From Silvanigrella paludirubra (GTDB lineage: Bacteria; Bdellovibrionota_B; Oligoflexia; Silvanigrellales; Silvanigrellaceae): a stretch of DNA of 64,000 nt. The stretch is taken from the NCBI RefSeq assembly GCF_009208775.1, contig NZ_WFLM01000001.1, positions 475,325 to 539,324 on the forward strand, given 5' to 3'. Each line of letters starts with the position of its first letter. The first letter of the stretch is position 1. Made by a program: the position numbers and the translations under genes. Of the stretch, positions 5,527 to 60,922 are shown in pieces. The notes beneath the pieces are model-generated. The model saw only the letters and a program-made list of their open reading frames with translations, was not told the origin of the DNA and ran no database searches.

Positions 5527-5549
5527 AGTTAAATAGTAAAATAAAATCT

Positions 5550-5576
5550 TAATATTTTTCTTATAAATACCGATAA
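5550..5576 (+). promoter_or_regulatory. Sigma-28 (FliA)-like promoter of chemoreceptor 2
   Basis: TAATATTT (5550-5557), an 11-base spacer, then ACCGATAA (5569-5576), close to TAAAGTTT-N11-GCCGATAA and to the element ahead of chemoreceptor 1. The start codon follows 40 bases later. Two independent matches with identical spacing make a flagellar-class promoter plausible. Confidence 0.55.
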
Positions 5577-5616
5577 AAATATAGAAATTCATTTTGAATT
5601 AAGGAAATTTTAATTG

Positions 5617-7095: not shown

Positions 7096-7098
7096 AAT

Positions 7099-7562: not shown

Positions 7563-8165
7563 AATACTATATTTAGTGAATTCAAACCAAGTTCTCTTTT
7601 TAAATTATCTTGCATGCTCCAACCTATTATGGATATTGAAAAAGTATCTAAAATTATGCACAAAAATAAATCCAGCCTTCTTTAGTTGGAATATAAGTAA
7701 TATCGCTATTCAAATTTCATTTGGTTTATAGGAGGTAAAGTCTCCTGAAATTAAATTTGGACTATTTAATGCTTGTTTATCAATTTTTGTTGTTGTTTTA
7801 AACCATTTATAAAAACCACTTTTAGAAATGCACATTACTTTACAAAGTTAAAAAATTGCATAATTAAGCTTCTCTAGCAAAATAAACTCGTACTTTAATC
7901 GAGCTGCTTTGCAAAGAATAATTTAAGTTATCCTTTTTGCCATTACAGCGTTTCCAACTATTCAAAGAGGGATAAGAAACTCCAAACTCCTTAGCTATCA
8001 AATTGGACAACCCTTCTATATGAACGCATAAGTTTATAGCATATTGTCCACTAAAAGGAATTACTTTAGCTATTATTTCAATGAGGATTTAAAAACAGCA
8101 TTTTTGTTTAGACATGGAAATGTTGAGTTTGTCAAAATCTATTTTTAAACTCATAAGGAAGTTCT
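7563..8165 (-). mobile_element. IS3-family insertion sequence remnant (OrfA and N-terminal half of OrfB)
   Basis: Reading the minus strand shows a broken IS3-type transposase. From about 8060 to 7930 a helix-turn-helix resembling OrfA is visible (LSNLIAKEFGVSYPSLNSWK). OrfB follows with CKVMCISKSGFYKWFK near 7850-7800, DITYIPTKEGWIYF near 7700-7665 carrying the first catalytic Asp, and IIGWSMQDNLKRELGLNSLN near 7640-7575. Stops and frameshifts interrupt it (for example after SYKPNEI and after FCA). The frame then runs straight into the BamA-like fragment at about 7562, so the C-terminal half is missing here; a matching C-terminus lies at 9728-9815. From 8166 to 8468 I see only AT-rich sequence. 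Confidence 0.7.
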
Positions 8166-8468
8166 GAGAAATTTTTGAATAAATTAAAGAAGATAAAATT
8201 AAAAAGTGAAAAGCATTAAAATTTTCTGATAATATAATCTCCGATTATAATTGAATTATATATCTAATATAGAAATGAAAAAGTAAGCAAATAAAAAAAG
8301 ACTAATTTTTTGATAAACTAAATTTAATGAAAAAATTATATAATTTAATGAAATATCTAATAAAAAAAATTAGAACAATATATTTATTGAAATTTATAAT
8401 AAAAGATATTAATCAGTAGTCGTTAAAATGTATATGAGAGTGTGTCCTTTAATGAAATGAGATTATGA

Positions 8469-9599
8469 ATGTATAACAAAGAAGTTAAAGATATAAAAAT
8501 TTCTCAAAGAATTAGCGGAATCGATTCTTTAAGAGGAATAGCAGCTATTATTATGGCTCTTTTTCATGCAAATTCTGCCTTTGGTTTAAATTTTAATGTC
8601 CCTAATTTTAGATTAGATATTTTCTTTATATTAAGTGGGATTATAATGGCACTAGTTTATGAAGATAAAATATATAGTGGAAAAATTAATTTTAAAGATT
8701 ATTTTGTAAAAAGAATCTCAAGATTGCTACCTTTGCATTATATTACATTATTTTTGACATTAATTTTATTTATATTATATATTATTTCAGGTAAATCTTA
8801 CTTGGTTCCTCCTGAAAGTAATATTTTTACTTTTTTTCTTCATCTTTTTCTTCTTCAAAATATTGGATTAACTGAGACTCTTACTTGGAATTATGTTTCT
8901 TGGTCAATTTCAGCTCAAATAATTATTGAAACTATTTGGTTTTATTTTTTGTATAAGAAAAATAAATCATCATATTTATATTTGTTTGTAATTATAATCT
9001 GCATGTTTATTATAATTAAATCTTTTGGTTTAGGCTTTGTTGATGTTGCATCGAATCCTAGTATAATTTATATTAATGCTGGTATGTTAAGATATTTAAT
9101 GGATTTTTGTATTGGAGTGTTAATTTATAGATTTTTCTGTGTTAGATTTAAAATGTTTTATATGATTCCGAATTATATTTTAAATGTTATTTCTCTTATA
9201 ATAATGATATATCTTATAACAATTTGGACCTTCAAAAACTTATATTTTGAAGGTTCAGATTTTGTTAATGCTTTATTTGTTTATCCTTTATTAATTTGTA
9301 TTTGTATTAATAACAAAACGATTCTTAGTAAAATTATAAATACTTATTTTCTATCTTATTTAGGAAAAATCGCATATTCAATATTTCTGATTCATCCTTT
9401 AATTATTGTATTATCATGGAAGATTCAAAAATATTTTGATTTTCATTGGATTCTATTGCTTTGTTTATATTATTTTATATTAATTGTAGCATCCCATCTT
9501 TCATATAATTTTATAGAAATTCCAGGAGCAAGATTAGTAAATAAAATATTTGAAAAAGTTAAAAAAAGAAAAAATTATGTAATAAAAATAAACAATTGA
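8469..9599 (+). CDS. Acyltransferase family 3 (OafA/YrhL-type) membrane protein
   Basis: Integral membrane acyltransferase of 376 residues that would transfer an acyl group, often acetyl, to a surface sugar or lipid. The N-terminus has the family signature IDSLRGIAAIIMALFHANSA, with the conserved His in the first membrane segment, followed by RLDIFFILSGIIMA and then RISRLLPLHY. About ten hydrophobic segments follow, and a Lys-rich tail closes the protein, as is usual for Acyl_transf_3. No Shine-Dalgarno sequence is obvious before the ATG. It stands alone, between two halves of a broken IS3 element, so it may have been acquired or trapped there. No polysaccharide genes are adjacent, and the acceptor is unknown. 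Confidence 0.85.
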   Translation: MYNKEVKDIKISQRISGIDSLRGIAAIIMALFHANSAFGLNFNVPNFRLDIFFILSGIIMALVYEDKIYSGKINFKDYFVKRISRLLPLHYITLFLTLILFILYIISGKSYLVPPESNIFTFFLHLFLLQNIGLTETLTWNYVSWSISAQIIIETIWFYFLYKKNKSSYLYLFVIIICMFIIIKSFGLGFVDVASNPSIIYINAGMLRYLMDFCIGVLIYRFFCVRFKMFYMIPNYILNVISLIIMIYLITIWTFKNLYFEGSDFVNALFVYPLLICICINNKTILSKIINTYFLSYLGKIAYSIFLIHPLIIVLSWKIQKYFDFHWILLLCLYYFILIVASHLSYNFIEIPGARLVNKIFEKVKKRKNYVIKINN

Positions 9600-42808: not shown

Positions 42809-43393
42809 ATGCCAAACCATGATGATTTGACCTCAATTTTTGAAGCCACGACTCAAAAAAAACTTTTTGATCAGCGCATCGTCATTCTTTCAGAAGCTAT
42901 CCATGCAGCATCTGCAAAAAGAGTTATTGAACAATTATTTGCCTTAGAAGCCGCTGATGCAACTAAGGAAATTTGGTTATTCTTAAATAGCCCAGGTGGT
43001 GAAGTCAACTCAGGCTTTGGAATATATGATACCATTCGTTTTGTGCGCCCAGAAGTAAAAATTATTGTAACAGGGCTTGCCGCTAGTGCTGCTACTGTTG
43101 TTTTACTTGCCGCAGAATCAAAACACCGTTATTCTATGCCAAATTCAAGACTATTAATTCATCAACCTTTAATAGGTGGAAGTATCCAAGGCCAAGCATC
43201 TGATATTGAAATTCATGCAAAAGAAATTTTAAAAACTCGTGAAAAAATAGCGGAACTTTATACAAAAGAAACAAAACAACCGATAGAGCGAGTTCGTAAA
43301 GATATAGAGCGTGATTATTGGATGACAGCTCAAGAAGCCCTAGAGTATGGACTAATTACAAAAGTAATTTCTTCTTGGAATGAAGTAAGATAA
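42809..43393 (+). CDS. clpP: ClpP-family serine protease, variant type
   Basis: 194-residue Clp protease proteolytic subunit. The catalytic Ser93 lies in GLAASAATVVLLA (usually AASMGA), His118 in RLLIHQPLIGG, and Asp169 in IERDYWMTAQEALEYG, so the triad is intact. The oligomerisation region LFLNSPGGEVNSGFGIYDTI is conserved. The motif around the Ser differs from the housekeeping ClpP and no clpX, clpA or tig is adjacent, which suggests a second ClpP paralogue (ClpP2-like) with its own partner. AGAAGGAGCCCAA is a strong ribosome-binding site. Confidence 0.85.
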   Translation: MPNHDDLTSIFEATTQKKLFDQRIVILSEAIHAASAKRVIEQLFALEAADATKEIWLFLNSPGGEVNSGFGIYDTIRFVRPEVKIIVTGLAASAATVVLLAAESKHRYSMPNSRLLIHQPLIGGSIQGQASDIEIHAKEILKTREKIAELYTKETKQPIERVRKDIERDYWMTAQEALEYGLITKVISSWNEVR

Positions 43394-43462: not shown

Positions 43463-44245
43463 TCAAGTTTCTAAAGTAACAATCCCAGAATCTTCAATAA
43501 ATATACTTTCATCTTTTAAAAGAACTCCACTGCTATTTATTTTTTGAGCTTCAATTAAAAGCCATGCTGTTTTAAAAGCAGCTTCTTTGTATGAAAGTCC
43601 TTGAAGTCTAACATTTGAAATGCAGTTTCTTTCTGATTCTTTTTTTCCCTTTTTTGGATTCCAAGTTAAATAAATTCCTAAACTATCGGGAGAAGAAAGG
43701 CCAGGACGCTCTCCAATAAAAATAATGGAGGCTTGACTTTGTAATGCTTCGCCTATTTCGTCACTTAATGCAACTCGAGCCTGTTGAGCAATAATAATAG
43801 GATTTAATTTAAATGTTGTATTTTTCAATGCATGATTTAATTCAAATAATAAGGGACAAGCATTTATATTTATAGCTGTTGCTGAAAGACCATCACCAAA
43901 TATTATAGTAATATTTCCTTTATCTATATTTTTTTCTTTTAAAAATTCCAATGAGTTTTCTGAAAGCTGTCTACCTAAATTAGGATTCATTAAATATTCT
44001 TTTTTATTTAATGCTTTGCTATTTACAATAAATGATTTAAAATTATTTTCTAATAATAATTTCTGAATATTTTTTATATCTAATTCTTTATATATTGCAT
44101 CTTTTGCAAGTGCGTGTGACATGCCAAATTTTAATAATTCATCAGTGGGTATGCTATTTCCTGTTCTACCAAGAGCTATTCTTGCATCTGTATGTTCTTT
44201 AAAAGAACTCCAAACATCTTTTTTAATAATATTATTTTTATTCAC
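43463..44245 (-). CDS. eutC: Ethanolamine ammonia-lyase, small subunit
   Basis: 260-residue light chain of the B12-dependent ethanolamine ammonia-lyase, which splits ethanolamine into acetaldehyde and ammonia. Signatures are HTDARIALGRTGNSIPTDEL, LSENSLEFL with ITIIFGDGLSATAININACP, and IIFIGERPGLSSPDSLGIYL with CISNVRLQGLSYKEAAF. It lies 10 bases behind eutB, the usual order. No other eut genes (reactivase EutA, transporter, microcompartment shell or regulator) are in the window, so this is a minimal cytosolic pathway; acetaldehyde would have to be handled by a dehydrogenase elsewhere. Confidence 0.94.
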   Translation of the reverse strand: MNKNNIIKKDVWSSFKEHTDARIALGRTGNSIPTDELLKFGMSHALAKDAIYKELDIKNIQKLLLENNFKSFIVNSKALNKKEYLMNPNLGRQLSENSLEFLKEKNIDKGNITIIFGDGLSATAININACPLLFELNHALKNTTFKLNPIIIAQQARVALSDEIGEALQSQASIIFIGERPGLSSPDSLGIYLTWNPKKGKKESERNCISNVRLQGLSYKEAAFKTAWLLIEAQKINSSGVLLKDESIFIEDSGIVTLET

Positions 44246-44255
44246 AATTTTTACC

Positions 44256-45629
44256 TTATGATATTTGAAGTAATGGATGTTTTAAAGAAGGAGAAATAAT
44301 GTTACCTATTGTGTCAAGTAAACCAATATTAGATAACCAATTTTCAAATTCGGGAGCTCTTTTTAACTTTAAAAGATCACGTAAATAGAGGGCATCATGA
44401 AAAGATGTACTCTGATAATTTAACATAATATCATCAGCACCCGGAATTCCCATGATAAAAGTAACGCCTGCATTCCCTAATAATGTAAGTAAAATATCCA
44501 TATCATCTTGGTCTGCTTCTGCATGATTTGTGTAACAAATATCACAACCTATTGGGAGACCTAGTAATTTTCCACAAAAATGATCTTCTAAACCTGCTCT
44601 TATTATTTGTTTTCCATCAAATAAATATTCAGGACCTATAAATCCAACAACGGTATTTACCAAAAGAGGTGAAAAATGTCTTGCCACTGCATAAGCTCTC
44701 GCTTCGCATGTTTGCTGATCTATATCAAAATGAGCGTCCGATGAAAGTGCACTACCTTGTCCTGTTTCAAAATACATTACATTATTTCCAATCGATCCTC
44801 GATTTAGCGATAAAGCAGCTTGATAAGACTCATTTAAAATAGAAAGATTAATTCCAAAATGTTCATTTGCTTTTTGCGTTCCAGCAATAGATTGAAACAC
44901 AAGATCAATGGGAATATTTTTTTCTATTAATTTTATTGAATTTGTTACATGAGTCAAAATACAGGATTGAGTTGGAATTTGAAATTTTAAAATTATATCG
45001 TTTAATAATTCATTCATAGTAGCTAAAGTTGTTAAGTTATCACTTACAGGATTAATACCAATAACTGCATCTCCACTTCCATAAAATAGTCCGTCAATAA
45101 GGGAAGCTGTTATGCCTTTTAAATCATCTGTAGGATGGTTTGGTTGCAAGCGAACAGATAATCTATTTGGAAGTCCAATCGTATTTCTAAATTTTGTAAC
45201 GACGCGGCATTTTTTAGCTACTGTAATCAAATCCTGATTTCTCATAAGTTTGCTAGTGGCAGCAGCCATTTCAGGGGTTATCCCTTTTGAAATATGGTTT
45301 AATTTTTCTGATGTTGCTTCGTCAGATAATAACCAATTTCGAAAGTCACCTACAGTCAAATGAGAAATATATTGAAATGAATTTTTATCATGGGTATCTA
45401 TTATCAGTCTTGTTACCTCATCTTCTTCATAAGGAACTAAACTTTCAGTTAAAAAATATTTTAATGGAATTTCAGCTAAAGCAAATTTAGCCGCCATTCT
45501 TTCTTCCGCATTAATTGCTGAAATACCTGCAAGGTTATCACCAGAGCGTTCAGGGGATGCTTTTGCAAGTAAAGTTTTTAAGTCTTTAAATTGAAATATT
45601 TTATTACCAATAGTATGTTTATAAATCAT
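44256..45629 (-). CDS. eutB: Ethanolamine ammonia-lyase, large subunit
   Basis: 457-residue heavy chain carrying the active site, a TIM barrel that binds ethanolamine and adenosylcobalamin. It starts with the usual FQFKDLKTLLAKASPERSGD, and contains AGISAINAEERMAAKFALAE, LPNRLSVRLQPNHPTDDLKG, LIDGLFYGSGDAVIGINPVS and MYFETGQGSALSSDAHFDID, all typical. Length is that of E. coli EutB (453). It is co-directional with eutC. The region upstream, to the RCC1-repeat gene, is 300 bases of AT-rich sequence that must hold its promoter; no cobalamin riboswitch-like B12 box was found. Confidence 0.95.
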   Translation of the reverse strand: MIYKHTIGNKIFQFKDLKTLLAKASPERSGDNLAGISAINAEERMAAKFALAEIPLKYFLTESLVPYEEDEVTRLIIDTHDKNSFQYISHLTVGDFRNWLLSDEATSEKLNHISKGITPEMAAATSKLMRNQDLITVAKKCRVVTKFRNTIGLPNRLSVRLQPNHPTDDLKGITASLIDGLFYGSGDAVIGINPVSDNLTTLATMNELLNDIILKFQIPTQSCILTHVTNSIKLIEKNIPIDLVFQSIAGTQKANEHFGINLSILNESYQAALSLNRGSIGNNVMYFETGQGSALSSDAHFDIDQQTCEARAYAVARHFSPLLVNTVVGFIGPEYLFDGKQIIRAGLEDHFCGKLLGLPIGCDICYTNHAEADQDDMDILLTLLGNAGVTFIMGIPGADDIMLNYQSTSFHDALYLRDLLKLKRAPEFENWLSNIGLLDTIGNIISPSLKHPLLQIS

Positions 45630-45932: not shown

Positions 45933-47201
45933 GTGAATATAAAAAGTATTTTAATATTTTCAAATATTTTTGTGGTTTTCATTTCTTGCAATCAGCTTTA
46001 CGATTTAAACGATCCTACAATTCCGTTATCAGAAAATACATTTAACTCTCTTGATGAACTTGTAAACTATTCTATAAAAATTGGATATGTTCCTTCCTAT
46101 ACAACAAATGGAGGTGAATATGGTTTAATTAGTTTAGGTGATACGAGTGGATGTGTTGTTATGAGAAATGGAACTGTAAAATGCTGGGGCTACAATGCAA
46201 ATGGACAACTTGGTACAGGTGATTTAGTGAATAGAGTAACACCTACACTTGCTTCAGCATTACCAACAACTACGGTAACGGGAGGTGATTTTTCCGTTGC
46301 TATTGCTTCTGAATATCAACATTCTTGCGGTTATTTTAAAACAGGTTTTAAATGTTGGGGTGATCAAACAAATGGTAAACTAGGGAATGGCGTTACATCA
46401 TCTACAAATCAATTAACACCTGTTTCCGTAACAAATTTATCTGGCAGGCAATTAAAGAAATTTAATGCTGGAGATAATCATTCATGTGGGCTTTTTGTTG
46501 ATGATGGTAGCATTAAATGTTGGGGTGATAATGCAAGCGGGCAATTAGGAGATGGGACTACAACAGTGAGATCAGGTGGAGTTACTCCAGTTACGGGTGG
46601 CACTTCATTTTCTTTTTCATGCGCAGATTTTACGAGTTGCTCCGTATCTACTGCTAATCAATTAAAATGCTGGGGGGGTATTTTATCTGCGACTTCTCCA
46701 ACATTAGTTTCATCAAATGCGACTTTTGTATCTAGTGGAGAGGGAGGACATATGTGTTTCATTACCACTGCTCAAAACGTCCAATGCTTTGGAAACAATT
46801 CAAATGGACAATTGGGAAATGGTTCAACAGGAGGCTCTTCCACTACCCCTGTGACTGTGTCAAATCTCACTGGAGCGAGTATGGTTATTGCAGGAAATAA
46901 TCACACGTGTGCTGTTACAAACAATAATCAATCTGCTTATTGCTGGGGAGATAATTCGACAGGACAATTAGGTGCTGGTGTTTCTTTAACGAACTATAGT
47001 GTTCCTCAAAAAGTTGTTGGACTTCCTTCTGGTGCAATCATTGTTGATATTGCTTCTGGTGATGCCGTAAGTTGTGTTTTATTATCTAATGATGATGTCT
47101 ATTGCTGGGGGAATAACTCAAGCAATGACTTTTTGGGGGTTGCTAAATCTACTGCAAATTCTTCAACAGCAATTAAAATTTTAAATAGAGCTGATCCTTA
47201 A
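45933..47201 (+). CDS. RCC1-repeat beta-propeller lipoprotein
   Basis: 422-residue secreted protein. The GTG start follows AAAGGAATTTCT. A signal with lipobox FISC (Cys near residue 19) anchors it in the membrane, and residues about 85-415 make seven RCC1 repeats, each with a CWG (once CFG) core and mostly GQLGxG after it: KCWGYNANGQLG, KCWGDQTNGKLG, KCWGDNASGQLG, KCWGGILS, QCFGNNSNGQLG, YCWGDNSTGQLG, YCWGNNSSND. That is one seven-bladed propeller. Every blade also has a Cys 8-13 residues before the CWG Cys, so each blade probably holds a disulphide, as expected for an exported protein. RCC1 propellers are protein-binding scaffolds; a role in adhesion or interaction with a host or prey is an inference. 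Confidence 0.8.
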   Translation: MNIKSILIFSNIFVVFISCNQLYDLNDPTIPLSENTFNSLDELVNYSIKIGYVPSYTTNGGEYGLISLGDTSGCVVMRNGTVKCWGYNANGQLGTGDLVNRVTPTLASALPTTTVTGGDFSVAIASEYQHSCGYFKTGFKCWGDQTNGKLGNGVTSSTNQLTPVSVTNLSGRQLKKFNAGDNHSCGLFVDDGSIKCWGDNASGQLGDGTTTVRSGGVTPVTGGTSFSFSCADFTSCSVSTANQLKCWGGILSATSPTLVSSNATFVSSGEGGHMCFITTAQNVQCFGNNSNGQLGNGSTGGSSTTPVTVSNLTGASMVIAGNNHTCAVTNNNQSAYCWGDNSTGQLGAGVSLTNYSVPQKVVGLPSGAIIVDIASGDAVSCVLLSNDDVYCWGNNSSNDFLGVAKSTANSSTAIKILNRADP

Positions 47202-50356: not shown

Positions 50357-50388
50357 TTAACTGAATGGCATTGACTCCCTAAGTTGCA
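50357..50388 (+). repeat. IS6-type terminal-repeat-like sequence, copy 1
   Basis: TTAACTGAATGGCATTGACT, followed by CCCTAAGTTGCA. The first 20 bases recur at 58089 and 59269 with few changes. The remnant transposase starts immediately after this copy. The words GGCATTGACT and GTTGCA resemble the ends of IS6-family elements. Confidence 0.4.
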
Positions 50389-50620
50389 GACTAGTAGAAG
50401 AACTTTTGGCAGAGCGCGGATTTTTTGTAGATCATACGACTATTCAACGTTAGATTGTGGAATACTGTCCAAAATTACTTAAGAAGTTTTATAAGCTTAG
50501 GAAAAGCATCTATGGAAGTTGGAGAATGGATTAGACTTACATCAAGGTAAAATATCAGTGGCATCACCTTTATCCATTCCAAGATTCTTTGTTACCTTCG
50601 ATTCTTTGCAACAGAACCTT
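50389..50620 (+). mobile_element. IS6-family transposase remnant
   Basis: On the plus strand one frame reads LVEELLAERGFFVDHTTIQR, stop, IVEYCPKLLKKFYKLRKSIY then GSWRMD, stop, TYIKVKYQWHHLYPFQDSLL. With Trp and Glu in place of the two TAG codons this is the N-terminal to middle part of an IS6/IS26-family transposase, including the first catalytic Asp (WRMD). The start, the later catalytic residues and the C-terminus are missing. It lies 150 bases left of the amino-acid biosynthesis-like cluster. Confidence 0.75.
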
Positions 50621-50773
50621 TTATTTAATTTTATATTTTCAAATTAAAGATAAAACTAGTAAATTAATTTATTAAAATTAAAATAAATATATTTTATTTA
50701 AAATTGACTTTCTTTATAATTAAGAATATCAAATTTTTAGATCATAAACAATTTAAAGAATAGGCGAGATATT

Positions 50774-51778
50774 ATGGCAAAAAAGAATATTTCATATGAA
50801 GAAACATATTTAGTAACACATTCAACAATAAATTCACTAAGGTCCTCTGTTATTTCAATGGGATTTAAAGAAATTCTACCTTGTATTATTTCAAAAAAAT
50901 ATGAACCAGGAGCAAAGCATTCTATTGCAATTCTTGGAAATAAAGAATTACCAAATATTTTAAAAAATGATTCATCTGTAGCAGCAATAGGTAAAGAAGC
51001 TTATTATTTACCCGTTAGCCATGTTGTTGAAAAACAAATGTCACTTCAATTTTTACAAAAAGCATTTTGTGTAGCTCCTTGTCTGCGTCTTTTAATGGAT
51101 GGCGAAGAAAAATCTGGAAAACATATTTATAATTTTTTTCAATTTGAAATTGAATGGCGAACAGAAAGTATGGAAGAAGTGTTTTTGACAGCAAATAAAA
51201 TTTTAAATAAAACTGCAGAAATTCTGTTAAGTGATAACGATATCATATCTATTTTAAATAAAAAAAATATACCGTTTAAAAACTTAGAATCTCTTTCTAC
51301 ATTACAGTTTCCTATCGTTTCATTTAGAGAAGCACAAAAATTAGTTGGAAAATCTACCAATTGTAATCAAGATTTTACGCAAGATGAAGATACAATTCTT
51401 TCCAATAATTTTAATTCTCCATTTTGGATATTTGATTACCCTGCTGGAGTAAGAGATTCTATTTATCATGAAAACGAAAAAGGAACATTCGATACTTATG
51501 ATTTAATGCTTCCATTTGGATTTGGTGAATTAACGACTGGAGGTATTAGACCTCAATCTAAAGAAGAAATTGTAAAGCAATCAATTACATTGGGTAAATC
51601 ATATTATCCAGCATATGCCGACTGGAAAGAAACAAGTAAAGTGCAAACTGCAGGATTTGGAATAGGCATTGAAAGATTTATGCGCTTTATAACAGACAGT
51701 AATTCAATATTAAATTTTGTTCAATATCACGATGATGGCCCAAATAAAAATATATGTGAAAGTTTTTTTGAAAATTAG
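50774..51778 (+). CDS. Stand-alone class II aminoacyl-tRNA synthetase-like enzyme (asparagine synthetase / AsnRS-like)
   Basis: 334 residues with only the catalytic core of a class IIb synthetase of the Asp/Asn type, and no N-terminal anticodon-binding OB fold. Motif 2 is CLRLLMDGEEK followed by KHIYNFFQFEIEW, with the Arg and His positions kept. FWIFDYPAGVRDSIYHE and FDTYDLMLPFGFGELTTGG match the AsnRS amino-acid pocket, and motif 3 is intact in GFGIGIERFMRF. Archaeal proteins of this design make asparagine from aspartate (AS-AR type), so this one could do the same or activate an Asp/Asn-like acid as adenylate. It opens a seven-gene cluster, with the next ATG 24 bases after its stop. AGGCGAGATATT precedes the ATG. 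Confidence 0.75.
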   Translation: MAKKNISYEETYLVTHSTINSLRSSVISMGFKEILPCIISKKYEPGAKHSIAILGNKELPNILKNDSSVAAIGKEAYYLPVSHVVEKQMSLQFLQKAFCVAPCLRLLMDGEEKSGKHIYNFFQFEIEWRTESMEEVFLTANKILNKTAEILLSDNDIISILNKKNIPFKNLESLSTLQFPIVSFREAQKLVGKSTNCNQDFTQDEDTILSNNFNSPFWIFDYPAGVRDSIYHENEKGTFDTYDLMLPFGFGELTTGGIRPQSKEEIVKQSITLGKSYYPAYADWKETSKVQTAGFGIGIERFMRFITDSNSILNFVQYHDDGPNKNICESFFEN

Positions 51779-51802
51779 ATAAATTTTGAGGTATATATAA
51801 AG

Positions 51803-52693
51803 ATGTTTTATATAGAAATATCAAATAAATTAAAATCAGAAATTAATAATTTGAGTGAATTCTCAGATAATACAATATTTTTTAATCCTGAGAAATTTGA
51901 GATTGCAGTAAATTTAATTGAAAAAAGACATTCTGAAGAAATTAATGAAATAAAATTATTAATTCAAAAAAATGGATATTTAGTTATTAAAAATTTACCA
52001 ATTGAATTTGAATTACCGTATACACCAAATGCCCCAGATGAAATTATTCAAAAAAAACATTATATAAGTGAAATAAATCTCGTTTTTATAGGTTATATTA
52101 TTGGTAGAATATTTTCATTTGAAGATGAAAACAAAAATAAAATTCATAATGTATTTCCATCTATAAATCATCAAGAATATACTAGCAGTCTAGGCTCTAA
52201 ACATCATTTATCATTACATACTGAAATAGCATTTTCAAAGTTTAAGCCAGACTATATTTCTCTAATTTGCGTTCGCAAGTCAAAAAATTTATCACCAACC
52301 CTATTATGTGATATGAAAAAAGTTTTTGAGGCAGTGCCAAAACATATATGGAATATTATTCAAAATGAAGATTATTTTATAAGACAACCAGCAACTTTTA
52401 AATCTGAAACTATTTATCGAAAAATAAAAGCAATTGAATTAGAAGAAAATAATAATTTTAGCTTCTTTTTTAATTTTATAGATGGAATGATGGTATCACT
52501 ATCTCAAAAAAGTCATGAAGCTTTAGATGTTATAAAAGATTATGTTTATAAATTAAAAGAAGAAGTTCTTTTAGAAGAAGGGCATGCAATTGTAATTGAT
52601 AATCATCGCTTTCTTCATGGTCGAGATCAAATACAAGCAAATTTTGATGGTTTTGATAGATGGCTTCAAAGAATTTATATTAGAAAAAAGTAA
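51803..52693 (+). CDS. AsnO/clavaminate-synthase-type Fe(II)/2-oxoglutarate oxygenase
   Basis: 296-residue non-haem iron oxygenase. The metal ligands are HTE (H139, E141, in LSLHTEIAFS) and a distal H272 (HRFLHGRDQI), and R286 in GFDRWLQR should bind 2-oxoglutarate. HxE in place of HxD, with a long N-terminal part before it, is characteristic of the clavaminate synthase, AsnO (L-asparagine beta-hydroxylase) and VioC group, which hydroxylate free amino acids. In this cluster an asparagine- or aspartate-like substrate is the natural guess, supported by the AsnRS-like neighbour. It is co-transcribed, and its end precedes the ATP-grasp start by 28 bases. Confidence 0.75.
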   Translation: MFYIEISNKLKSEINNLSEFSDNTIFFNPEKFEIAVNLIEKRHSEEINEIKLLIQKNGYLVIKNLPIEFELPYTPNAPDEIIQKKHYISEINLVFIGYIIGRIFSFEDENKNKIHNVFPSINHQEYTSSLGSKHHLSLHTEIAFSKFKPDYISLICVRKSKNLSPTLLCDMKKVFEAVPKHIWNIIQNEDYFIRQPATFKSETIYRKIKAIELEENNNFSFFFNFIDGMMVSLSQKSHEALDVIKDYVYKLKEEVLLEEGHAIVIDNHRFLHGRDQIQANFDGFDRWLQRIYIRKK

Positions 52694-52721
52694 CAGTACT
52701 TTATATTATAAAAGGTTTAAT

Positions 52722-53987
52722 GTGAAAAATTTATTATTTATAGTTGAATCATCCGTTTTGGGAGTCAAATATTTATGTGAAGCTGCAAAATATTTAAACT
52801 TTAATCCAGTTATTTTATCTGAAATAACAAATCAAGAAGGAGATGCTAAAAAGCAAATATTAGACGAAACGTATTTAAAATGCGAAACCTCATCATTTGA
52901 TGGAATTGTTGCAGGAATACAAAATTATCATGAAATTTATGAAAATAAAAAAATAGAAGGCCTTGTAACATTACTAGATAGCAGAATTCATATATGCTCT
53001 GAAGTATCTCAATTTTTAAATATAAAAGGAATTGAATCTTCATGTCAAATTACAAAAAACAAACAAAATATATGCCGTGATATTGAGGAATATTCACCAA
53101 AATATTTTTCTCTAGAAGATTTTTATTCTAACAAAATTAGTAATTATTTTAAAAATAATGAAAAAATTTGTATTAAATTAAAATATGGAGCAGGAGGAAA
53201 GGGTTTTTTTATTGTAGATAATTTTGAAATTCTGTTAGAAGAAATTTCAAAAAGATCTTTAACTCCAGAAGAATTTTTTTCTCAATACTTTTTGCAGCAG
53301 TATATTCATGGTGAACTTGTTAGTGTTGAAGGATATTTTTTAAATAATGAAGTTAATATTTTTGAATTTACAGGAAGAAGAAAGATAAAAGACACTGAAT
53401 GTTCACTTGTTTTTCCTTATAGTAAAAATATTACTTTAATTCAAAAAGATAAAATATATGATTGTTTATTAAAAATTAAGAGTCATTATAAATTAAAAAA
53501 ATCTTTTTTTCATATTGAATTCATAATAACTGCTAATGATATATACTTAATTGATGCAAATATTGGTAGGCCACCAGGGGGTAATTTAATTGAGCTTATT
53601 TGTTATTCATTTGGTATAAGTGTTACAGATTTTTTTAAAAACTATCTTTCTATTGTCCTTAAAAGTAATGAATTTTTAAATTTTAAAAAAATAAAAATAA
53701 AAGACAATATTTATACTTTTAATGATACATTAAATTCAAGTAAATCTTATTTGGGTGTAGGCTATGGAGTTCCTTTAAGTACAACTTTTATTTCTCTTGA
53801 TTATACATCAAATGATAACCTTTCATATATCAATGCAATTGATCCAAATACAAAAGTGTGTAAAATGGGTGAAACAAATTGGGCATGGGTTGGTTTAGTT
53901 TCAGGAGAAGAATCAAATGTAATAAGTGAATTAAGTAAAATTAAAATTATTACTACAGATGGAGTATTTTCACCAGTATGGCATTAA
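52722..53987 (+). CDS. ATP-grasp amino-acid ligase
   Basis: 421 residues from the GTG at 52722 (AAAGG ten bases before; an ATG two bases earlier is followed directly by a stop). The open frame extends upstream, but only into the previous gene. ATP-grasp elements: KLKYGAGGKGFFIVDNF (glycine-rich lid), QQYIHGELVSVEGYF, FFHIEFIITANDIYLIDANI with GRPPGGNLIEL, giving the Glu and Asn metal ligands. This is the class of carboxylate-amine ligases that make dipeptides and peptide antibiotics (BacD-, DdaF-like). It probably joins the modified amino acid to a second amino acid or amine. The MFS gene starts 10 bases before its stop. Confidence 0.78.
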   Translation: MKNLLFIVESSVLGVKYLCEAAKYLNFNPVILSEITNQEGDAKKQILDETYLKCETSSFDGIVAGIQNYHEIYENKKIEGLVTLLDSRIHICSEVSQFLNIKGIESSCQITKNKQNICRDIEEYSPKYFSLEDFYSNKISNYFKNNEKICIKLKYGAGGKGFFIVDNFEILLEEISKRSLTPEEFFSQYFLQQYIHGELVSVEGYFLNNEVNIFEFTGRRKIKDTECSLVFPYSKNITLIQKDKIYDCLLKIKSHYKLKKSFFHIEFIITANDIYLIDANIGRPPGGNLIELICYSFGISVTDFFKNYLSIVLKSNEFLNFKKIKIKDNIYTFNDTLNSSKSYLGVGYGVPLSTTFISLDYTSNDNLSYINAIDPNTKVCKMGETNWAWVGLVSGEESNVISELSKIKIITTDGVFSPVWH

Positions 53988-55267
53988 ATAGCATTACTCA
54001 AATATTAAAAATAAATAAAGATGGTTTTTCTATACCATTTTTAACAATCCGCTGTTTCACCGTTTTTTGTGAACAAGCGATACTTTTTTTTATCCCTATT
54101 TATATATATTCTTTAACAAACCGCACATCATTCTCGGGAATTTCATTTGTAATAGAGTGGCTTCCTACACTATTGCTTATACCATATGCAGGAATTTTAT
54201 TAGATAAATTTCCTACCAAGGTTTCGTATTTTCTTATTGATTTTTTAAGAGCAATTATTATTTCACTATTGTCTATTTTTATTATATTTAATTTAAATTG
54301 GGTTCTTATTGCATTTTGTTCTTCGATTTTAGCAATATTAAGTGCATTAAGTTTTGTCTGCCAAGAAAAAGTTCTTGCCACAAAATTTATTGGAAGTAAA
54401 TTTGTTTCTTTCCAAATGACTTTACAAATATTTGAACAGTTAGGAACTATTTTTGGCCCACTTGTAGGTGTTTTCTTTATTAAAAAAAGTGAAATATTTT
54501 ATTTTTTATTTGGTTGTTCCACATTTTTTGTGATAACCTCAATTATAATGCCTTTACTTTTAAAACACTCTCGTTTTCACGAGCCAAAATTAAAAATAAA
54601 TAATTTTAAATCGAATGTTATAAAACAACTCTATAGTTCAATTTCTTATATAGTAAAAAATAAGCCTTTACTATTTATAATTTTTATTACACTTTGTGTA
54701 AATTTTACTTATGGTTATGTTAATGTTATTACTCCATTTCGTGTCATAACAGAACTTGGAAAATCAAATTCAGATATTCTTATTTTAACATCGTATGCTG
54801 CTATTGTAAGTATAGTTATTCTAATCATTTCATTTATTTTTGTAAATATAAATAAAATGTATTTAGGAATTGCCTCATTTATTTCAATAATGATTGGAGC
54901 CTTTGTAATTTGCACAAGTACAAGTTACCATTTTTATATTATTGGTTATTGCATGATCTTTTCATTGTTACCTATGTTTTCGGTGTTTATTAGGTATTTT
55001 AGAAATATATTTACAGATAAAGAATTATTTTCACAAGTTGTAAGTGCAATTGTTGTAATTAATAGATTGAGCTTTCCAATTGTTGGATCATGCATAGCTT
55101 TAACTTCATTATTATTTAATCCAAAATATTTTTTAATAGGATGTCTTGTATTTTTTTCTTTATTTGGTTTTATTGCGTTTAGAATTTTAAAGTTTTATTG
55201 TGAAATGCAAGTAGATTTAGAAGTTAAAACAATACAAACTACAAGTTTGCTTAAAGGAAAAACATGA
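53978..55267 (+). CDS. MFS exporter
   Basis: 429-residue transporter with about 12 membrane segments and the short motifs of the MFS drug/metabolite exporter class (LLIPYAGILLDKFPTKVS resembles motif A). Two six-segment halves are visible, separated by a loop with a Lys-rich stretch (FHEPKLKINNFKSN). Its ATG lies inside the last codons of the ATP-grasp gene, so translation is coupled. It probably exports the cluster product, or protects the cell from it. The last bases overlap the start of the racemase gene (ATGA). Confidence 0.82.
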   Translation: MALNSITQILKINKDGFSIPFLTIRCFTVFCEQAILFFIPIYIYSLTNRTSFSGISFVIEWLPTLLLIPYAGILLDKFPTKVSYFLIDFLRAIIISLLSIFIIFNLNWVLIAFCSSILAILSALSFVCQEKVLATKFIGSKFVSFQMTLQIFEQLGTIFGPLVGVFFIKKSEIFYFLFGCSTFFVITSIIMPLLLKHSRFHEPKLKINNFKSNVIKQLYSSISYIVKNKPLLFIIFITLCVNFTYGYVNVITPFRVITELGKSNSDILILTSYAAIVSIVILIISFIFVNINKMYLGIASFISIMIGAFVICTSTSYHFYIIGYCMIFSLLPMFSVFIRYFRNIFTDKELFSQVVSAIVVINRLSFPIVGSCIALTSLLFNPKYFLIGCLVFFSLFGFIAFRILKFYCEMQVDLEVKTIQTTSLLKGKT

Positions 55268-56028
55268 AATTTGATAATTACATTCCACAAGTTAATTCAA
55301 ATCATTATATAAATAAACCAAAAATTGGAATTATTGCAGGTATGGGGCCAAAATCAACTGGCCCATTTATAGAAAAAGTAATATTTTATTTTCAAACTAT
55401 TTTAAATTTTCAAAAAGATGATGATTTTCCTTATATAAATATTATTTCACTTCCAACACCATTTAGTATTAAAGAAACTATCGATAAAAATATTACATTA
55501 TTTGATTTAAAATATTCTTTAGATTCTTTATCAAACAGTAAAATAAATTTTATAGCAATACCATGTAACACAGTTCATAAATATTTTACAGAGTATAAAG
55601 AGTTTACTAATATTCCTATACTTAATATAATTGATGAAACAGTTAATTTTATAATACAAAATACTAAGGATAAAAAAATAGCTTTACTTGCAACAGCAAG
55701 TACTATTTCTTCAGAACTTTATCAAAATGAATTTAATAAAAATGGCTTATCTCTTATATTAGATTCCAGTATCCAAGAAAAATTTGATTCACTTTTAAAT
55801 ATGATTAAAAATATCGAATTTTCTGATGAAATAAAAATTGAAAAATGGCTTTCTCTTGAAAAAGAATTAATTACAAAAGGTGCAAAATCTATTCTTTCAG
55901 CATGTACAGATCTGTCATTTTTTCTTAATAAATTACCATTTAAGCAAAAACTAATATGTTTTGATTCTATGGATATTTTAGCGAAACAAGTTGTAATATA
56001 TTATTCAAAACTTGCAAATATTAATTAA
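55264..56028 (+). CDS. Aspartate/glutamate-racemase-family enzyme
   Basis: 254-residue cofactor-independent racemase of the Asp/Glu family. It starts GIIAGMGPKSTGPFIEKVI, and the two catalytic Cys are C101 (IAIPCNTVHKY) and C214 (LSACTDLSFFL), with LLATASTISSELYQ between. The second Cys motif is ACTD where the family usually has GCTE. Its start codon overlaps the MFS stop by four bases (ATGA). It can supply a D-amino acid (for instance D-Asp or D-Asn) as building block. PLP is not needed. Confidence 0.82.
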   Translation: MKFDNYIPQVNSNHYINKPKIGIIAGMGPKSTGPFIEKVIFYFQTILNFQKDDDFPYINIISLPTPFSIKETIDKNITLFDLKYSLDSLSNSKINFIAIPCNTVHKYFTEYKEFTNIPILNIIDETVNFIIQNTKDKKIALLATASTISSELYQNEFNKNGLSLILDSSIQEKFDSLLNMIKNIEFSDEIKIEKWLSLEKELITKGAKSILSACTDLSFFLNKLPFKQKLICFDSMDILAKQVVIYYSKLANIN

Positions 56029-56053
56029 TAATTTTAAGATGTAGGGTAAAAAA

Positions 56054-56563
56054 ATGTTAGTTTCTGATAATCTTATTTCATATTTAAATCAATCTTTTGC
56101 AAAGTATTCCTTATTAGATCATAAACCAACATTAACCAGTGAAGAAAGTTTGAGCGTAAGAATTGAAGCTGGATATAAAAACATTGTGGGTGCTAAAGCT
56201 TTATTACTTGAACTATTGCAAAAAGATATTGAATTACGAGAAAGGGTATTGTGCATACTTCCTGGTAGTTCAAAATTAAATGAAAAAAAATTAGTTGAAG
56301 CTATTGGATATGGAAAGAAATTAAAATTTTTAGATAAAGAAACTATGTTAAGAGATTATAACCTTGTTCCTGGTAGTGTTCCGCCCTTTGGTAATCCAAT
56401 TATTATTGTTAAACATTTTATCATAGATTCTGATATTTTTCAGGCACCTCTTCTTGGTTTTAATGCGGGATTATTAACGAGATCAATTATAATTGAACCA
56501 CAAGAATATAAAAAAGTTCTTAAAAATTATACTATCGCTTCAATAGCAAATAGGGATATTTAA
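56054..56563 (+). CDS. YbaK/ProX-type aminoacyl-tRNA deacylase-like protein
   Basis: 169-residue protein of the YbaK/EbsC editing family, which hydrolyses mischarged tRNAs in trans (for example Ala- or Cys-tRNA-Pro). Signatures are GYKNIVGAKALLLEL, with the conserved Lys (K48), RVLCILPGSSKLNEKKLVEA, and LVPGSVPPFGNP (residues 104-114). In a gene cluster that handles an unusual amino acid, a stand-alone deacylase would clear tRNA charged with it, so self-protection is a reasonable inference. It is preceded by GTAGGGTAAAAAA and lies 25 bases behind the racemase. Confidence 0.75.
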   Translation: MLVSDNLISYLNQSFAKYSLLDHKPTLTSEESLSVRIEAGYKNIVGAKALLLELLQKDIELRERVLCILPGSSKLNEKKLVEAIGYGKKLKFLDKETMLRDYNLVPGSVPPFGNPIIIVKHFIIDSDIFQAPLLGFNAGLLTRSIIIEPQEYKKVLKNYTIASIANRDI

Positions 56564-58006
56564 ATGAATACACTTAGGATATCAACTCCTTTGATCTCAC
56601 TTGATTTATCTCCATTTTATTTAAAATCAGGTGATTATGATTTAGCGCGAGCCCTCTTTTCGCCTTGGTTTTTATATGATGGTAATATTAAGCCATATTT
56701 AATTGAAAAATACTCAGCAAATGAAAATTTTACTATATTTCGTTTTGAAATAAAAAAAAATCTTTACTTTCATAATAAAAGAGAAGTTAATTCACAAGAT
56801 TTTAAATTTAGTTTGCAAAGAGGAATGCTTTTTAATGCAAGAAATAGTTTTAAAAATATTTTACTTTGTATTGAAGGTTCATATCAAATTGATGATTTTA
56901 CTGATATATATAAAGACTGTGTTTCAGGAATTAAATTAATTAATAATTATACATTTGATATTATTTTAAAATATCCTTGTTCTCATTTTCCTATCTATTT
57001 TACTAGGTCTGCTTTAAGTATTGTTCCGTATGAAGCACTTGATGATGATAAACCTTGGCTTTGGAAAAAATATCCTATTGGAACGGGAGCATTTCAAGTA
57101 ATTGAAAATATAAATAATAAAGTACAATTAGAGTTAATTAAATTTCCATTACATTTTTCAACTAACAGCTCATTGTTTCAAAAGATAATTTTTAGCCAAC
57201 CGAATTCTGAATTTAAAGCTGATATTACTTTAGATCAAGAATATTCATATTATCCAAATTTTTTGCATGTTGAATCTAAATTTTCGATGATTATTGCCCT
57301 TGAGCATTTTCATCATACAGGACCAACAGAATATTTTTTATTTTTGAGAAAATTAATAAATTCTGCGCTTGATAAAAATATTTTTATTAAATACTATATA
57401 GAAAATTCTAATTTATCGGCCATTGAAACAAATCAATTTTTACCCACTTCTATAAAAAAGTATAATTTTATAAAAAAAATGGATGATTTTAATTCATTAT
57501 ATATAGAATTTTTAGAAAAATTTGAAAAAATCCCTTTTATTAATATTGTTGTATATAATTTATATGGTAAAGAATCTATTATCTATAAACTTCAAATATT
57601 ATTATTTGAAACTCTGCAAAATTTTAATTTGCCTGTACAAATTAAATATTGTGACTCACTTGATTTTGATTTAAATCCTATTCAGCATTATGTTATTTTA
57701 GCAAGCTCAAGTTTTAACTATCCAGTGCAAGATAATTTATCTTTATTTTTTTCAAATACAAATGAAATTTTTCGTTATGAAGACTCTGATCTGTTGAATT
57801 TAAAAAAAATAATAAAACAAGCTGGTATTGAAAATAATTTGGATAAAAAAGAAGAATTGTATTTAAAGTTTCACGAAAATTTAATAAATTTAGGTTTAAT
57901 ATATCCACTATTCGAAACTTTTGAATATGCTTGTATCAATACTTCCATAATGGATCCAAAAAAAATATTTTATCATGGATACCATCCATATTATGAGTTT
58001 ATGTAG
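56564..58006 (+). CDS. Family-5 solute-binding-like protein without a signal peptide
   Basis: 480 residues resembling the peptide/nickel-binding SBP_bac_5 family: NENFTIFRFEIKKNLYFHNK, VNSQDFKFSLQRGM, YPIGTGAFQVIENINNK, and the later VQDNLSLFFSNTNEI. It begins directly with MNTLRISTPLISLDLSP, without a hydrophobic signal, and the ATG is immediately after the deacylase stop, so there is no room for one. It should therefore be cytoplasmic, like the ligand-sensing C-terminal domain of SgrR, but there is no DNA-binding domain. It could bind the cluster's peptide-like product or precursor. Nothing suggests an ABC transporter nearby. Confidence 0.6.
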   Translation: MNTLRISTPLISLDLSPFYLKSGDYDLARALFSPWFLYDGNIKPYLIEKYSANENFTIFRFEIKKNLYFHNKREVNSQDFKFSLQRGMLFNARNSFKNILLCIEGSYQIDDFTDIYKDCVSGIKLINNYTFDIILKYPCSHFPIYFTRSALSIVPYEALDDDKPWLWKKYPIGTGAFQVIENINNKVQLELIKFPLHFSTNSSLFQKIIFSQPNSEFKADITLDQEYSYYPNFLHVESKFSMIIALEHFHHTGPTEYFLFLRKLINSALDKNIFIKYYIENSNLSAIETNQFLPTSIKKYNFIKKMDDFNSLYIEFLEKFEKIPFINIVVYNLYGKESIIYKLQILLFETLQNFNLPVQIKYCDSLDFDLNPIQHYVILASSSFNYPVQDNLSLFFSNTNEIFRYEDSDLLNLKKIIKQAGIENNLDKKEELYLKFHENLINLGLIYPLFETFEYACINTSIMDPKKIFYHGYHPYYEFM

Positions 58007-58268: not shown

Positions 58269-59057
58269 ATGACAAAAATTTGGATTGTTGATGCTTTTAC
58301 AGACACTGCTTATAGAGGAAATCCTGCTGCAGTGATGATTGTAGACGAATTTCCACTAAATATGCTGCAAATTGCCAAAGAAATGAATTTATCAGAAACA
58401 GCCTTTGTAATGCCACTAGGTGGAAATCGATTTCATATACGTTGGTTTACTCCTACTGCAGAAGTAAAGCTTTGTGGTCATGCGACACTTGCTGCAGCTC
58501 ATGTTTTAATGTCTACGAAGTTAATTTTAAGTGACAGTATTATATTTGATTCATTATCAAACGAACTTTTGGTAAATAAAATATCTGATTCATATTCGTT
58601 AGACTTTCCTTTACAAAAAATTGGTCAAAACATATCTAAAGAGCTTTATAAAAAAGCTTTACAATTAAATGACGAAATTCTTGAAGTAGTAAAAGCATTT
58701 GACGATGTTTTAGTTCTTGTTAAGGATGAGGATATTGTAAAAGAATTATCCCCAGATTTTTCAAGATTATTGGAGGTTGATGCAAGAGGAGTTATTGTTA
58801 CAACTCATTCTTCGAAATATGATTTTGTTTCTAGATTTTTTGCTCCTAAATTAGGTGTAAACGAAGATCCTGTTACGGGTTCTGCACATTGTAAACTTGC
58901 TGATTATTGGAGTAAAAAATTAAATAAAAAAGAATTAATTGCCTATCAAGCAAGTGAAAGAGGAGGTGTTATTAAAATTTTAGTTAACGATGAAAGAGTT
59001 ATATTAAATGGAAAAGCTATAACAATTCTTGAAGGTAAATGGTTAGTTCAAATTTAA
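58269..59057 (+). CDS. PhzF-family isomerase
   Basis: 262-residue member of the PhzF family, named for the isomerase of phenazine biosynthesis. The conserved YRGNPAAVMIVDEF, the catalytic Glu in LSETAFVMP (E45), RWFTPTAEVKLCGHATLAAA and EDPVTGSAHCKLADYW are all present. Most bacterial members are not in phenazine clusters and their substrates are unknown. GGAAGGAGTTCTGT gives a strong ribosome-binding site. It stands alone between two of the IS6-like repeats, so it may be part of the mobile block, but a link to the preceding seven genes is unproven. Confidence 0.88.
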   Translation: MTKIWIVDAFTDTAYRGNPAAVMIVDEFPLNMLQIAKEMNLSETAFVMPLGGNRFHIRWFTPTAEVKLCGHATLAAAHVLMSTKLILSDSIIFDSLSNELLVNKISDSYSLDFPLQKIGQNISKELYKKALQLNDEILEVVKAFDDVLVLVKDEDIVKELSPDFSRLLEVDARGVIVTTHSSKYDFVSRFFAPKLGVNEDPVTGSAHCKLADYWSKKLNKKELIAYQASERGGVIKILVNDERVILNGKAITILEGKWLVQI

Positions 59058-59458: not shown

Positions 59459-60922
59459 TTAATTTAAATTATCTATATAGATTAGCATGTTTTTAGAAAC
59501 TATTTCTGCTTGTTCTAAACAGTCTGAAATGGAAGGACCTTTTATATAATTGCCAGTAAAAAAGAGACCCGGAACCAATGCTTCTATTTTCCAAATAGCT
59601 TCAAGAACTTTGTCTTGTTCTATTGTTGCTAAAGGAATATAATTATCCCATTTAACAACATGAGTGAAATCAAAATAAATATTTTTATCAATAATTTTAG
59701 TTTCCAATAATCTTAATTTTGAAATTTCAATTAATTCTTCATTTGATTTTTGATTTATGAGGGGATTTCTATCACCGCCTAATAAAACTCTGAACAAATT
59801 AGAATTAGTCGGGGCATGACTAGGGTAGGTGGAATGAACAAAAATTGTTCCTAAAATATCTTTAGACCATTCACCTGCTAGAGCGCCAAAGCCTTTGATG
59901 GATGTTGTATTTTCTGGAATATTACTGGAACCTAATCCAATAATTGCAATGCTATGTGACTCAATGTTTTTTAATTTAAGAAAGGATTTTTCTAATTCTC
60001 CTTTTTCTAATTCCATTGATTGAATGGAAATATTTTGATCTCTCCATGGTTGTCCTGAATACAATACACAATGATATTGTTCTTGATATAAATTATTTTC
60101 TTTTAGAAAATTTACAGATATAAAATTAGACTCTCTTTTTATTAAATTAACATTAGAATTTAAATTTAAAACAAGTTCAATATTATTTTTTAAGCATTCT
60201 TTTTTTAATTCATTAAATAAAGTATTTACTAGAAATTCCATTCCATTCGAAAAACTTGCCAATCCTTTTGGAGAGGATTTTTTCTTTTTTAAAAACAAAT
60301 TTTTGCATAAATGAATAAAACCCATTTTTATTAGACTACCATAACCGTTTTCTAGTGATTGTAGTTTAGGAAAAGTATACCTTAATAATAACTTTCTTGA
60401 TCCACCACCCCAAATTCCAAAAGATAGGGAAACAAGAAAAGTATTTGCAAATTTTTTTCCAAAACGACGTTCAAAAAATGAATAAAGGGTTTCATTTAAA
60501 TTAATAGTTTTAGGTTTTTTAATAAATATTTCTAAAAATATTCTAAAAATATCTTTAAATTTTAATAATCCACTCTTTTTTAATTTAAAAATATTTGGTG
60601 TTAAAGCCACGCATAATTTTTGAGTTAAAATATAACGTTTTTGTTCTTTTTGGTTTGGTAAAATGACTTGATTTTCTATTTTTAAATCTTGAAGGCATTT
60701 TAAAAATGATTCTCTATTTAATAAAACTCCTTGAGCACCATGCTCTAGTCTAAAATGATTTATATATGTGCTTTTAAGAACACCACCAATCGTTTCTTCT
60801 TTATCAAAAAGAGCTATTTTTTTTATATTTTTATTTTCACTTCTAGATAAAAGATAGGCGGATCTTAGACCAGATATTCCTGCACCAATAACAGCTATAT
60901 CTATGCTTTTGTTCTGACTCAT
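59459..60922 (-). CDS. hemY: Protoporphyrinogen oxidase (HemY/PPOX type)
   Basis: 487-residue FAD-dependent oxidase that converts protoporphyrinogen IX to protoporphyrin IX in haem synthesis. The dinucleotide-binding motif is IAVIGAGISGLRSAYLL, followed by EETIGGVLKSTY and LEHGAQGVLLNRESFL. Mid-protein LVSLSFGIWGGGSRKLLLRY and SFSNGMEFLVNTLFNEL fit the PPOX family (usually GVYAGDPxxLS and GGMxxL). The C-terminus LVPGLFFTGNYIKGPSISDC with LEQAEIV binds FAD. It is transcribed alone, TATAAGGTC preceding the ATG. No other hem genes are nearby. Confidence 0.88.
   Translation of the reverse strand: MSQNKSIDIAVIGAGISGLRSAYLLSRSENKNIKKIALFDKEETIGGVLKSTYINHFRLEHGAQGVLLNRESFLKCLQDLKIENQVILPNQKEQKRYILTQKLCVALTPNIFKLKKSGLLKFKDIFRIFLEIFIKKPKTINLNETLYSFFERRFGKKFANTFLVSLSFGIWGGGSRKLLLRYTFPKLQSLENGYGSLIKMGFIHLCKNLFLKKKKSSPKGLASFSNGMEFLVNTLFNELKKECLKNNIELVLNLNSNVNLIKRESNFISVNFLKENNLYQEQYHCVLYSGQPWRDQNISIQSMELEKGELEKSFLKLKNIESHSIAIIGLGSSNIPENTTSIKGFGALAGEWSKDILGTIFVHSTYPSHAPTNSNLFRVLLGGDRNPLINQKSNEELIEISKLRLLETKIIDKNIYFDFTHVVKWDNYIPLATIEQDKVLEAIWKIEALVPGLFFTGNYIKGPSISDCLEQAEIVSKNMLIYIDNLN

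Follow-up and report, generated by a model that had tools for sequence, protein, structure and literature searches.

A seven-gene cluster of Silvanigrella paludirubra, with an asparagine synthetase A-like enzyme at its centre, as a candidate pathway to an exported Asp/Asn-type small molecule

Introduction

Bacterial gene clusters dedicated to amino-acid or dipeptide products and devoid of large peptide synthetases constitute a known type, of which the present text considers a version whose central enzyme forms a branch of its own. This version occurs in a stretch of 64,000 nucleotides from Silvanigrella paludirubra (contig NZ_WFLM01000001.1, positions 475,325 to 539,324), hereafter called the window, as seven genes at 50774-58006 encoding (i) a synthetase-like enzyme here named AsnL, (ii) an oxygenase, (iii) an ATP-grasp ligase, (iv) an MFS transporter, (v) a racemase, (vi) a deacylase, and (vii) a binding protein. 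Among described enzymes, the archaeal-type asparagine synthetase A (AS-A), as in Pyrococcus, adenylates the beta carboxylate of Asp, which is then reacted with ammonia. Among described clusters, the one for clavulanic acid in Streptomyces clavuligerus includes an ATP-grasp ligase together with a clavaminate synthase, a beta-lactam synthetase and an OppA-type binding protein. The latter, namely OppA2, is essential in clavulanic acid biosynthesis, with a peptide intermediate as its presumed ligand (PMC7830376), which sets a precedent for a binding protein in a biosynthetic cluster. In the hydroxylase AsnO, residue D241 selects Asn and the D241N variant is an Asp hydroxylase (PMC9968057).

Respective to the clavulanic acid cluster, the likeness of the window cluster lies in an oxygenase of the clavaminate synthase family, an ATP-grasp ligase and a binding protein of the OppA type; on the other hand, no beta-lactam synthetase (AsnB-like) gene is present in 50774-58006, AsnL is unrelated to beta-lactam synthetase, and the binding protein lacks a signal peptide. 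The original prediction for this locus, made from the letters of the window, had proposed biosynthesis of an asparagine-derived small molecule by a pathway that could not be named; likewise, no pathway with this gene combination was found in the literature on Bacillus, Xenorhabdus and Agrobacterium, cluster databases not being covered and an earlier description being possible. Two candidates from this literature were discarded, i.e., the “asparagine synthetase-like” PesC of nitrilobacillin as a counterpart of AsnL, as it is of the unrelated AsnB type, and the phosphonate clusters of Pantoea ananatis, which are different.

Gene content and arrangement

The locus comprises seven complete open reading frames (ORFs), all on the + strand and all closed by a single stop codon at the end, and the spacing between successive genes is 24, 28, -10, -4, 25 and 0 bases, exactly the tight packing, with gaps of 0-28 bases and two overlaps, described beforehand. 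The family of each protein was assigned by hidden Markov model matches (Pfam, and NCBIfam with its curated cut-offs), by which all seven families called from the sequence proved correct:

50774..51778, + strand: AsnL, stand-alone class II synthetase core, kin of archaeal-type AS-A and of asparaginyl-tRNA synthetase (AsnRS)
51803..52693, + strand: predicted amino-acid hydroxylase, Fe(II)- and 2-oxoglutarate-dependent, clavaminate synthase/AsnO/VioC family (Pfam TauD)
52722..53987, + strand: predicted BacD-like L-amino-acid ligase of the ATP-grasp group (Pfam ATP-grasp_4)
53978..55267, + strand: MFS efflux transporter (Pfam MFS_1, 46 bits; NCBIfam TIGR00900, weak)
55264..56028, + strand: cofactor-free Asp/Glu-type racemase (Pfam Asp_Glu_race, 73 bits; TIGR00035)
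56054..56563, + strand: YbaK/ProXp-type aminoacyl-tRNA deacylase (Pfam tRNA_edit)
56564..58006, + strand: signal-less binding protein of family 5, the oligopeptide type (Pfam SBP_bac_5, 65 bits)
50376..50621, + strand: decayed IS6-family transposase remnant, a mobility trace just upstream of the cluster and not a working part of it

For the ATP-grasp gene, the longest ORF begins at TTG 52596, but homologs and a ribosome-site-like stretch (AAAAGG) favour GTG 52722. The G+C content of the cluster is 24.7% vs 29.8% in the remainder of the window. A PhzF gene (58269-59057) was rejected as a cluster member, given a gap of 262 bp and no counterpart in relatives. No tRNA or Rfam RNA was found in the window, and a promoter scan was uninformative, with as many matches as in shuffled sequences.

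Distribution of the cluster

Relatives were sought in plasmids and genomes with AsnL, which is the best handle on the cluster: identity between lineages is 45-58% for AsnL (window protein against eight homologs) and about 20-44% for the remaining cluster genes. When genomes were scanned with the oxygenase only, no match was obtained, patterns made from one sequence being too narrow; a scan with an alignment of AsnL worked. The order AsnL-oxygenase-ATP-grasp-MFS-racemase is found in a plasmid of Pantoea sp. JZ29 (L010), in Erwinia sp. 198 (L015) and in Xenorhabdus beddingii (L014). In Bacillus siamensis KCTC 13613 (L019), the order is AsnL-ATP-grasp-MFS-second ATP-grasp-oxygenase-racemase-binding protein, so that the five core genes and the binding protein are all linked there. 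The linkage of the cluster genes exceeds chance, since the core order is kept in three enterobacterial genera and the gene set also occurs in Bacillus; as such, the genes did not turn out to be unlinked in relatives, one of the outcomes by which the original prediction would have failed. When the family is defined by five linked genes, namely AsnL, oxygenase, ATP-grasp, MFS and racemase, all five are linked in the window, and the window cluster, with its seven genes, is one form of a broader family of uncharacterised clusters. Compared with the window, the Pantoea, Erwinia, Xenorhabdus and B. siamensis clusters share these five genes but have no YbaK gene; the enterobacterial ones encode an MFS protein of another subfamily, and that of B. 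siamensis includes an additional ATP-grasp gene and differs in gene order.

In Rhizobiaceae and Phyllobacterium, the cluster consists of AsnL-oxygenase-LysE-type exporter, a short form with neither ligase nor racemase. In one A. vitis plasmid, an asparaginase II gene is inserted right after the oxygenase gene, which is not general as it is missing in loci L016-L018. Taken together, the family spans plant- and insect-associated bacteria plus an unrelated phylum, and represents a small testable cluster family without large peptide synthetases; a set of five to seven genes is easy to express, which makes its product accessible to a search by mass spectrometry. In the window's own phylum, AsnL is present in 1 of 58 genomes, and scans of 395 genomes (order of Xenorhabdus), 300 (order of B. 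siamensis) and 398 (order of Phyllobacterium) each returned the already-known genome only. AsnL was found neither in congeners nor in viral contigs, and the ligase gene was not found in congeners apart from distant ATP-grasp matches.

Of note, decayed copies exist in Pantoea stewartii DC283 (L013), where several core genes are broken, and in A. ampelinum S4 (L012), where most of the oxygenase is gone and AsnL is split. In X. beddingii, the opposite strand beside the cluster (4373-8925) encodes a radical SAM protein, an MFS-like protein and a fused ATP-grasp/2-oxoglutarate-Fe dioxygenase, which together probably make up another small-molecule locus.

The synthetase-like enzyme AsnL

AsnL has 334 amino acids, of which residues 7-316 are covered by Pfam tRNA-synt_2 (82 bits), and its best NCBIfam match is PRK06462, asparagine synthetase A, with 129.6 bits, below the curated cut-off of 309. 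The protein is a class II catalytic core alone, with no anticodon-binding domain, and its fold matches those of AsnRS and AS-A (TMt 0.70), including structures 3p8t, 3reu and 3rl6; as the AlphaFold model has a pLDDT of 72 and low confidence in motif 2, no active-site claim was drawn from it. At the position of the Asp-side Lys, which is invariant in AsnL, the protein reads EKQ, where AS-A homologs read YKQ or HKQ and the AsnRS of the same genome reads EGE (Gly). Because it carries the Lys of aspartyl-tRNA synthetase and AS-A instead of the AsnRS pattern, AsnL is, as judged from these residues, an Asp-side enzyme rather than one of the AsnRS type, and it possesses neither the AsnRS substrate motif nor an N-terminal anticodon-binding domain. 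With archaeal-type AS-A (PRK06462; Pyrococcus 3p8t), AsnL has in common the stand-alone class II core, the Asp-side Lys and motif 3, but it differs by an identity of about 25%, a score below the cut-off, the lost motif-2 Glu and signatures of its own.

These differences weigh against plain asparagine synthesis. While the KQ signature of AS-A is retained, the RLE signature of motif 2 and the SxRE signature are absent: in all nine AsnL proteins the motif-2 Glu is missing (RxE replaced by RLL or RLV), and all nine exhibit GIRP or GVRP (IRP/VRP) in place of SxRE (ERE). Since the motif-2 Glu is lost and IRP replaces ERE, the substrates of AsnL may be other than Asp and ammonia. One explanation along this line, rated unlikely, is that the activated Asp side chain is given to another nucleophile, e.g., hydroxylamine or an amine, with an Asp-derived amide or hydroxamate as the product. 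The departures from AS-A and AsnRS shared by all nine proteins speak for it, as does the low identity to AS-A, and so does the presence of AsnB-type genes in the genome; conversely, the conserved core includes no second enzyme to make such a nucleophile, and in one plasmid version an asparaginase follows, which fits a side-chain amide. The window's genome has four AsnB-type (Asn_synthase) matches, by which AsnL is probably not needed for protein asparagine. A tree of AsnL was set aside and its topology unused, as the outgroup ORF was wrong and a single branch was well supported.

An AS-A gene in another setting was seen in two Streptomyces plasmids (L032, 7182-11195; L033, 7080-11183), where a two-subunit glutamate mutase, AS-A and a glutamate-synthase-like gene stand in a row with nonribosomal peptide synthetase genes alongside. 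This neighbourhood, a point in favour of the pathway proposed below, is indicative of amidation of a non-standard Asp, and by analogy suggests that the module would amidate methyl-Asp for methyl-asparagine supply.

The oxygenase

The oxygenase belongs to Pfam TauD and its profile matches OrfP, NapI, VioC, KDO, AsnO and CAS, although it scores below every equivalog cut-off. It resembles AsnO, VioC and clavaminate synthase in fold family, in the HxE...H iron site and in the Arg pair, the equivalents of AsnO H155, E157, H287, R301 and R305 being conserved, but differs from them by low identity and, as aligned, at the side-chain-selecting position. Judging from the family, hydroxylation would most likely take place at C3.

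Regarding the amino acid that is hydroxylated, several observations weigh against a strict Asn hydroxylase. The column of AsnO D241 varies, i.e., D in rhizobia, N in Pantoea, Erwinia and Xenorhabdus, and H in Bacillus; the window oxygenase has I in this column with D adjacent, in an alignment that is locally uncertain. If the column is correct, the enterobacterial oxygenases may take an Asp-type carboxylate and the rhizobial ones the amide, which given the weak alignment is a lead only. Moreover, a profile of nine oxygenases scores the arginine hydroxylases OrfP, NapI and VioC above AsnO. This ranking, along with the variable position, is what favours Arg, Lys or a comparable basic amino acid as the substrate of the oxygenase, in which case AsnL and the ligase would attach an Asp unit and the hydroxylated residue would not be Asp or Asn. 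That scenario is considered rather improbable: the high arginine-hydroxylase scores are partly due to the four rhizobial rows of the profile, the equivalent of AsnO E125 is E in the window oxygenase, the enterobacteria and Bacillus, and the rhizobial form has nothing but AsnL, the oxygenase and an exporter, whereby one amino acid probably serves both enzymes.

The other cluster proteins

The ligase matches Pfam ATP-grasp_4 with 39.2 bits (cut-off 27). A single-sequence search gave no solved relative; a profile from five homologs matches BacD and BL00235, alongside pyruvate carboxylases, and with the AlphaFold model (pLDDT 80) Foldseek matches 3vmm and 3vot, both L-amino-acid ligases, plus others such as biotin carboxylases. 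By profile and modelled fold, BacD (the bacilysin ligase) and BL00235 are the nearest amino-acid ligases, which suggests a ligase of the L-amino-acid type, predicted to form a peptide bond; nonetheless, identity to them is about 15% and the cluster lacks the other bacilysin pathway genes. The racemase scores 93.4 bits against TIGR00035 (cut-off 93.1), with invariant catalytic-type C101 and C214. Some Firmicutes ligate D-Asp to peptidoglycan precursors, and the pairing of an Asp racemase with an ATP-grasp enzyme recalls such a system, which would serve the cell wall and yield no diffusible metabolite. The match of the ligase to BacD and BL00235, the rhizobial form without ligase and racemase, as well as an exporter, an oxygenase and a patchy horizontal distribution ill-suited to a wall role, make this extremely improbable.

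The MFS protein has kin in the B. siamensis cluster, and its closest NCBIfam is an efflux subfamily. As for the binding protein, it has no hydrophobic signal segment and starts directly at the mature fold, which bears out the absence of a signal noted earlier; its ortholog in B. siamensis is full-length, 32% identical, likewise signal-less and likewise located after the racemase gene. In contrast to the binding proteins of ABC importers, it has no signal for secretion or lipobox and no ABC genes alongside in the cluster, and it is presumably cytosolic from its sequence. An operon for the uptake and degradation of peptides containing Asn or hydroxy-Asp could account for a peptide-binding protein next to a racemase but is very improbable, as the binding protein is signal-less, no ABC permease or ATPase gene lies within the cluster, the MFS protein is closest to efflux transporters, and the ligase and synthetase consume ATP. 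A tandem array of at least six genes for family-5 binding proteins occurs elsewhere in the genome (contig C6, 282731-291940).

The deacylase matches Pfam tRNA_edit with 53.1 bits (cut-off 25.5) but is not YbaK proper, the Cys-tRNA(Pro) deacylase of TIGR00011, for which 29.2 bits were obtained and the cut-off of 153 was not reached. Matches in the PDB to ProXp-ala and YbaK are weak. The Lys of GAKALL, aligned with a Geminocystis homolog, and PGSVPPFG (PGxxPPFG) are retained. By analogy, self-protection is the probable role of this enzyme, against which it must be set that the YbaK gene is present in the window cluster only, among the clusters examined. In a plasmid of Geminocystis sp. NIES-3709 (L035, 11890-14031), a YbaK-type homolog (34%) is located two genes after a related TauD-type oxygenase, an arrangement that hints independently at an association of the two functions; the same plasmid encodes a B3/4 editing-domain protein at 1898-2590, and maybe involves another hydroxylated amino acid with tRNA-editing protection.

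Proposed pathway and product

That the seven genes form a small-molecule biosynthetic cluster is very probable, and their conserved co-occurrence in other phyla gives good support to the original prediction of activation, hydroxylation, ligation, racemisation and export around an Asp/Asn-type amino acid. On balance, a horizontally moving cluster for an exported small molecule based on a beta-hydroxylated Asp/Asn-type amino acid is the reading to which the evidence leans, if slightly. With all steps derived from the chemistry of the families, the pathway would proceed as follows: (i) AsnL would adenylate the side-chain carboxylate of Asp, or hydroxy-Asp, and pass it to ammonia, (ii) the Fe(II)/2-oxoglutarate oxygenase would hydroxylate the free amino acid, (iii) the BacD-like ATP-grasp enzyme would couple the hydroxylated product to a second amino acid via an acyl phosphate, (iv) the racemase would supply or invert an alpha centre, (v) the MFS protein would export the peptide, (vi) the YbaK-type protein would hydrolyse tRNA mischarged with the unusual amino acid, and (vii) the signal-less binding protein would retain either the finished peptide or an intermediate within the cytosol. 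As the rhizobial short form consists of AsnL, oxygenase and amino-acid exporter, these two enzymes probably make an exported building block; most likely, we infer, AsnL and the oxygenase make one exported amino acid, which the other genes turn into a peptide.

A hydroxylated Asp/Asn peptide is, by a small margin of confidence, the expected product. Its “asparagine” part appears only partly supported, because the Asn-selecting position of AsnO varies and AsnL departs from AS-A in two active-site signatures; for the same variable column and lost motif-2 Glu, the beta-hydroxy-asparagine-type dipeptide first guessed is supported as an Asp/Asn-type small molecule, whereas as the exact product it is a candidate only. 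A more specific proposal, possible though doubtful, is that AsnL represents a new AS-A/AsnRS branch for side-chain activation of hydroxylated Asp (or with another nucleophile), the cytosolic binding protein and the deacylase jointly protecting the producer from its own amino-acid antimetabolite. More generally, the cluster would illustrate how the core of a class II synthetase was put to use in side-chain chemistry, and it might bring to light a new antimetabolite of the amino-acid kind along with the genes that protect against it, namely the deacylase, the exporter and the binding protein.

Genomic site

The genes at 42809-43393 and 59459-60922, the latter oxidase-like, have counterparts that adjoin each other in three congeners. 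A fourth congener has EutBC plus about 5 kb between the two, and in the window they are separated by 16 kb including the cluster. The remnant at 50376-50621 has 41% identity over 70 amino acids to an annotated IS6 transposase (BLASTP, E 2e-18), with two in-frame stops, whereas Pfam gave no match for this fragment. The rarity of AsnL, the variability of the site among congeners and the IS6 piece upstream point to a gain of the cluster by horizontal transfer at a variable site. At the edge of this site, the window encodes EutB and EutC, i.e., ethanolamine ammonia-lyase (43463-45629), which are kept in one congener (L060) and missing there in three. Further on, at 45933-47201, the encoded protein has apparent RCC1-like repeats, as recognised by eye.

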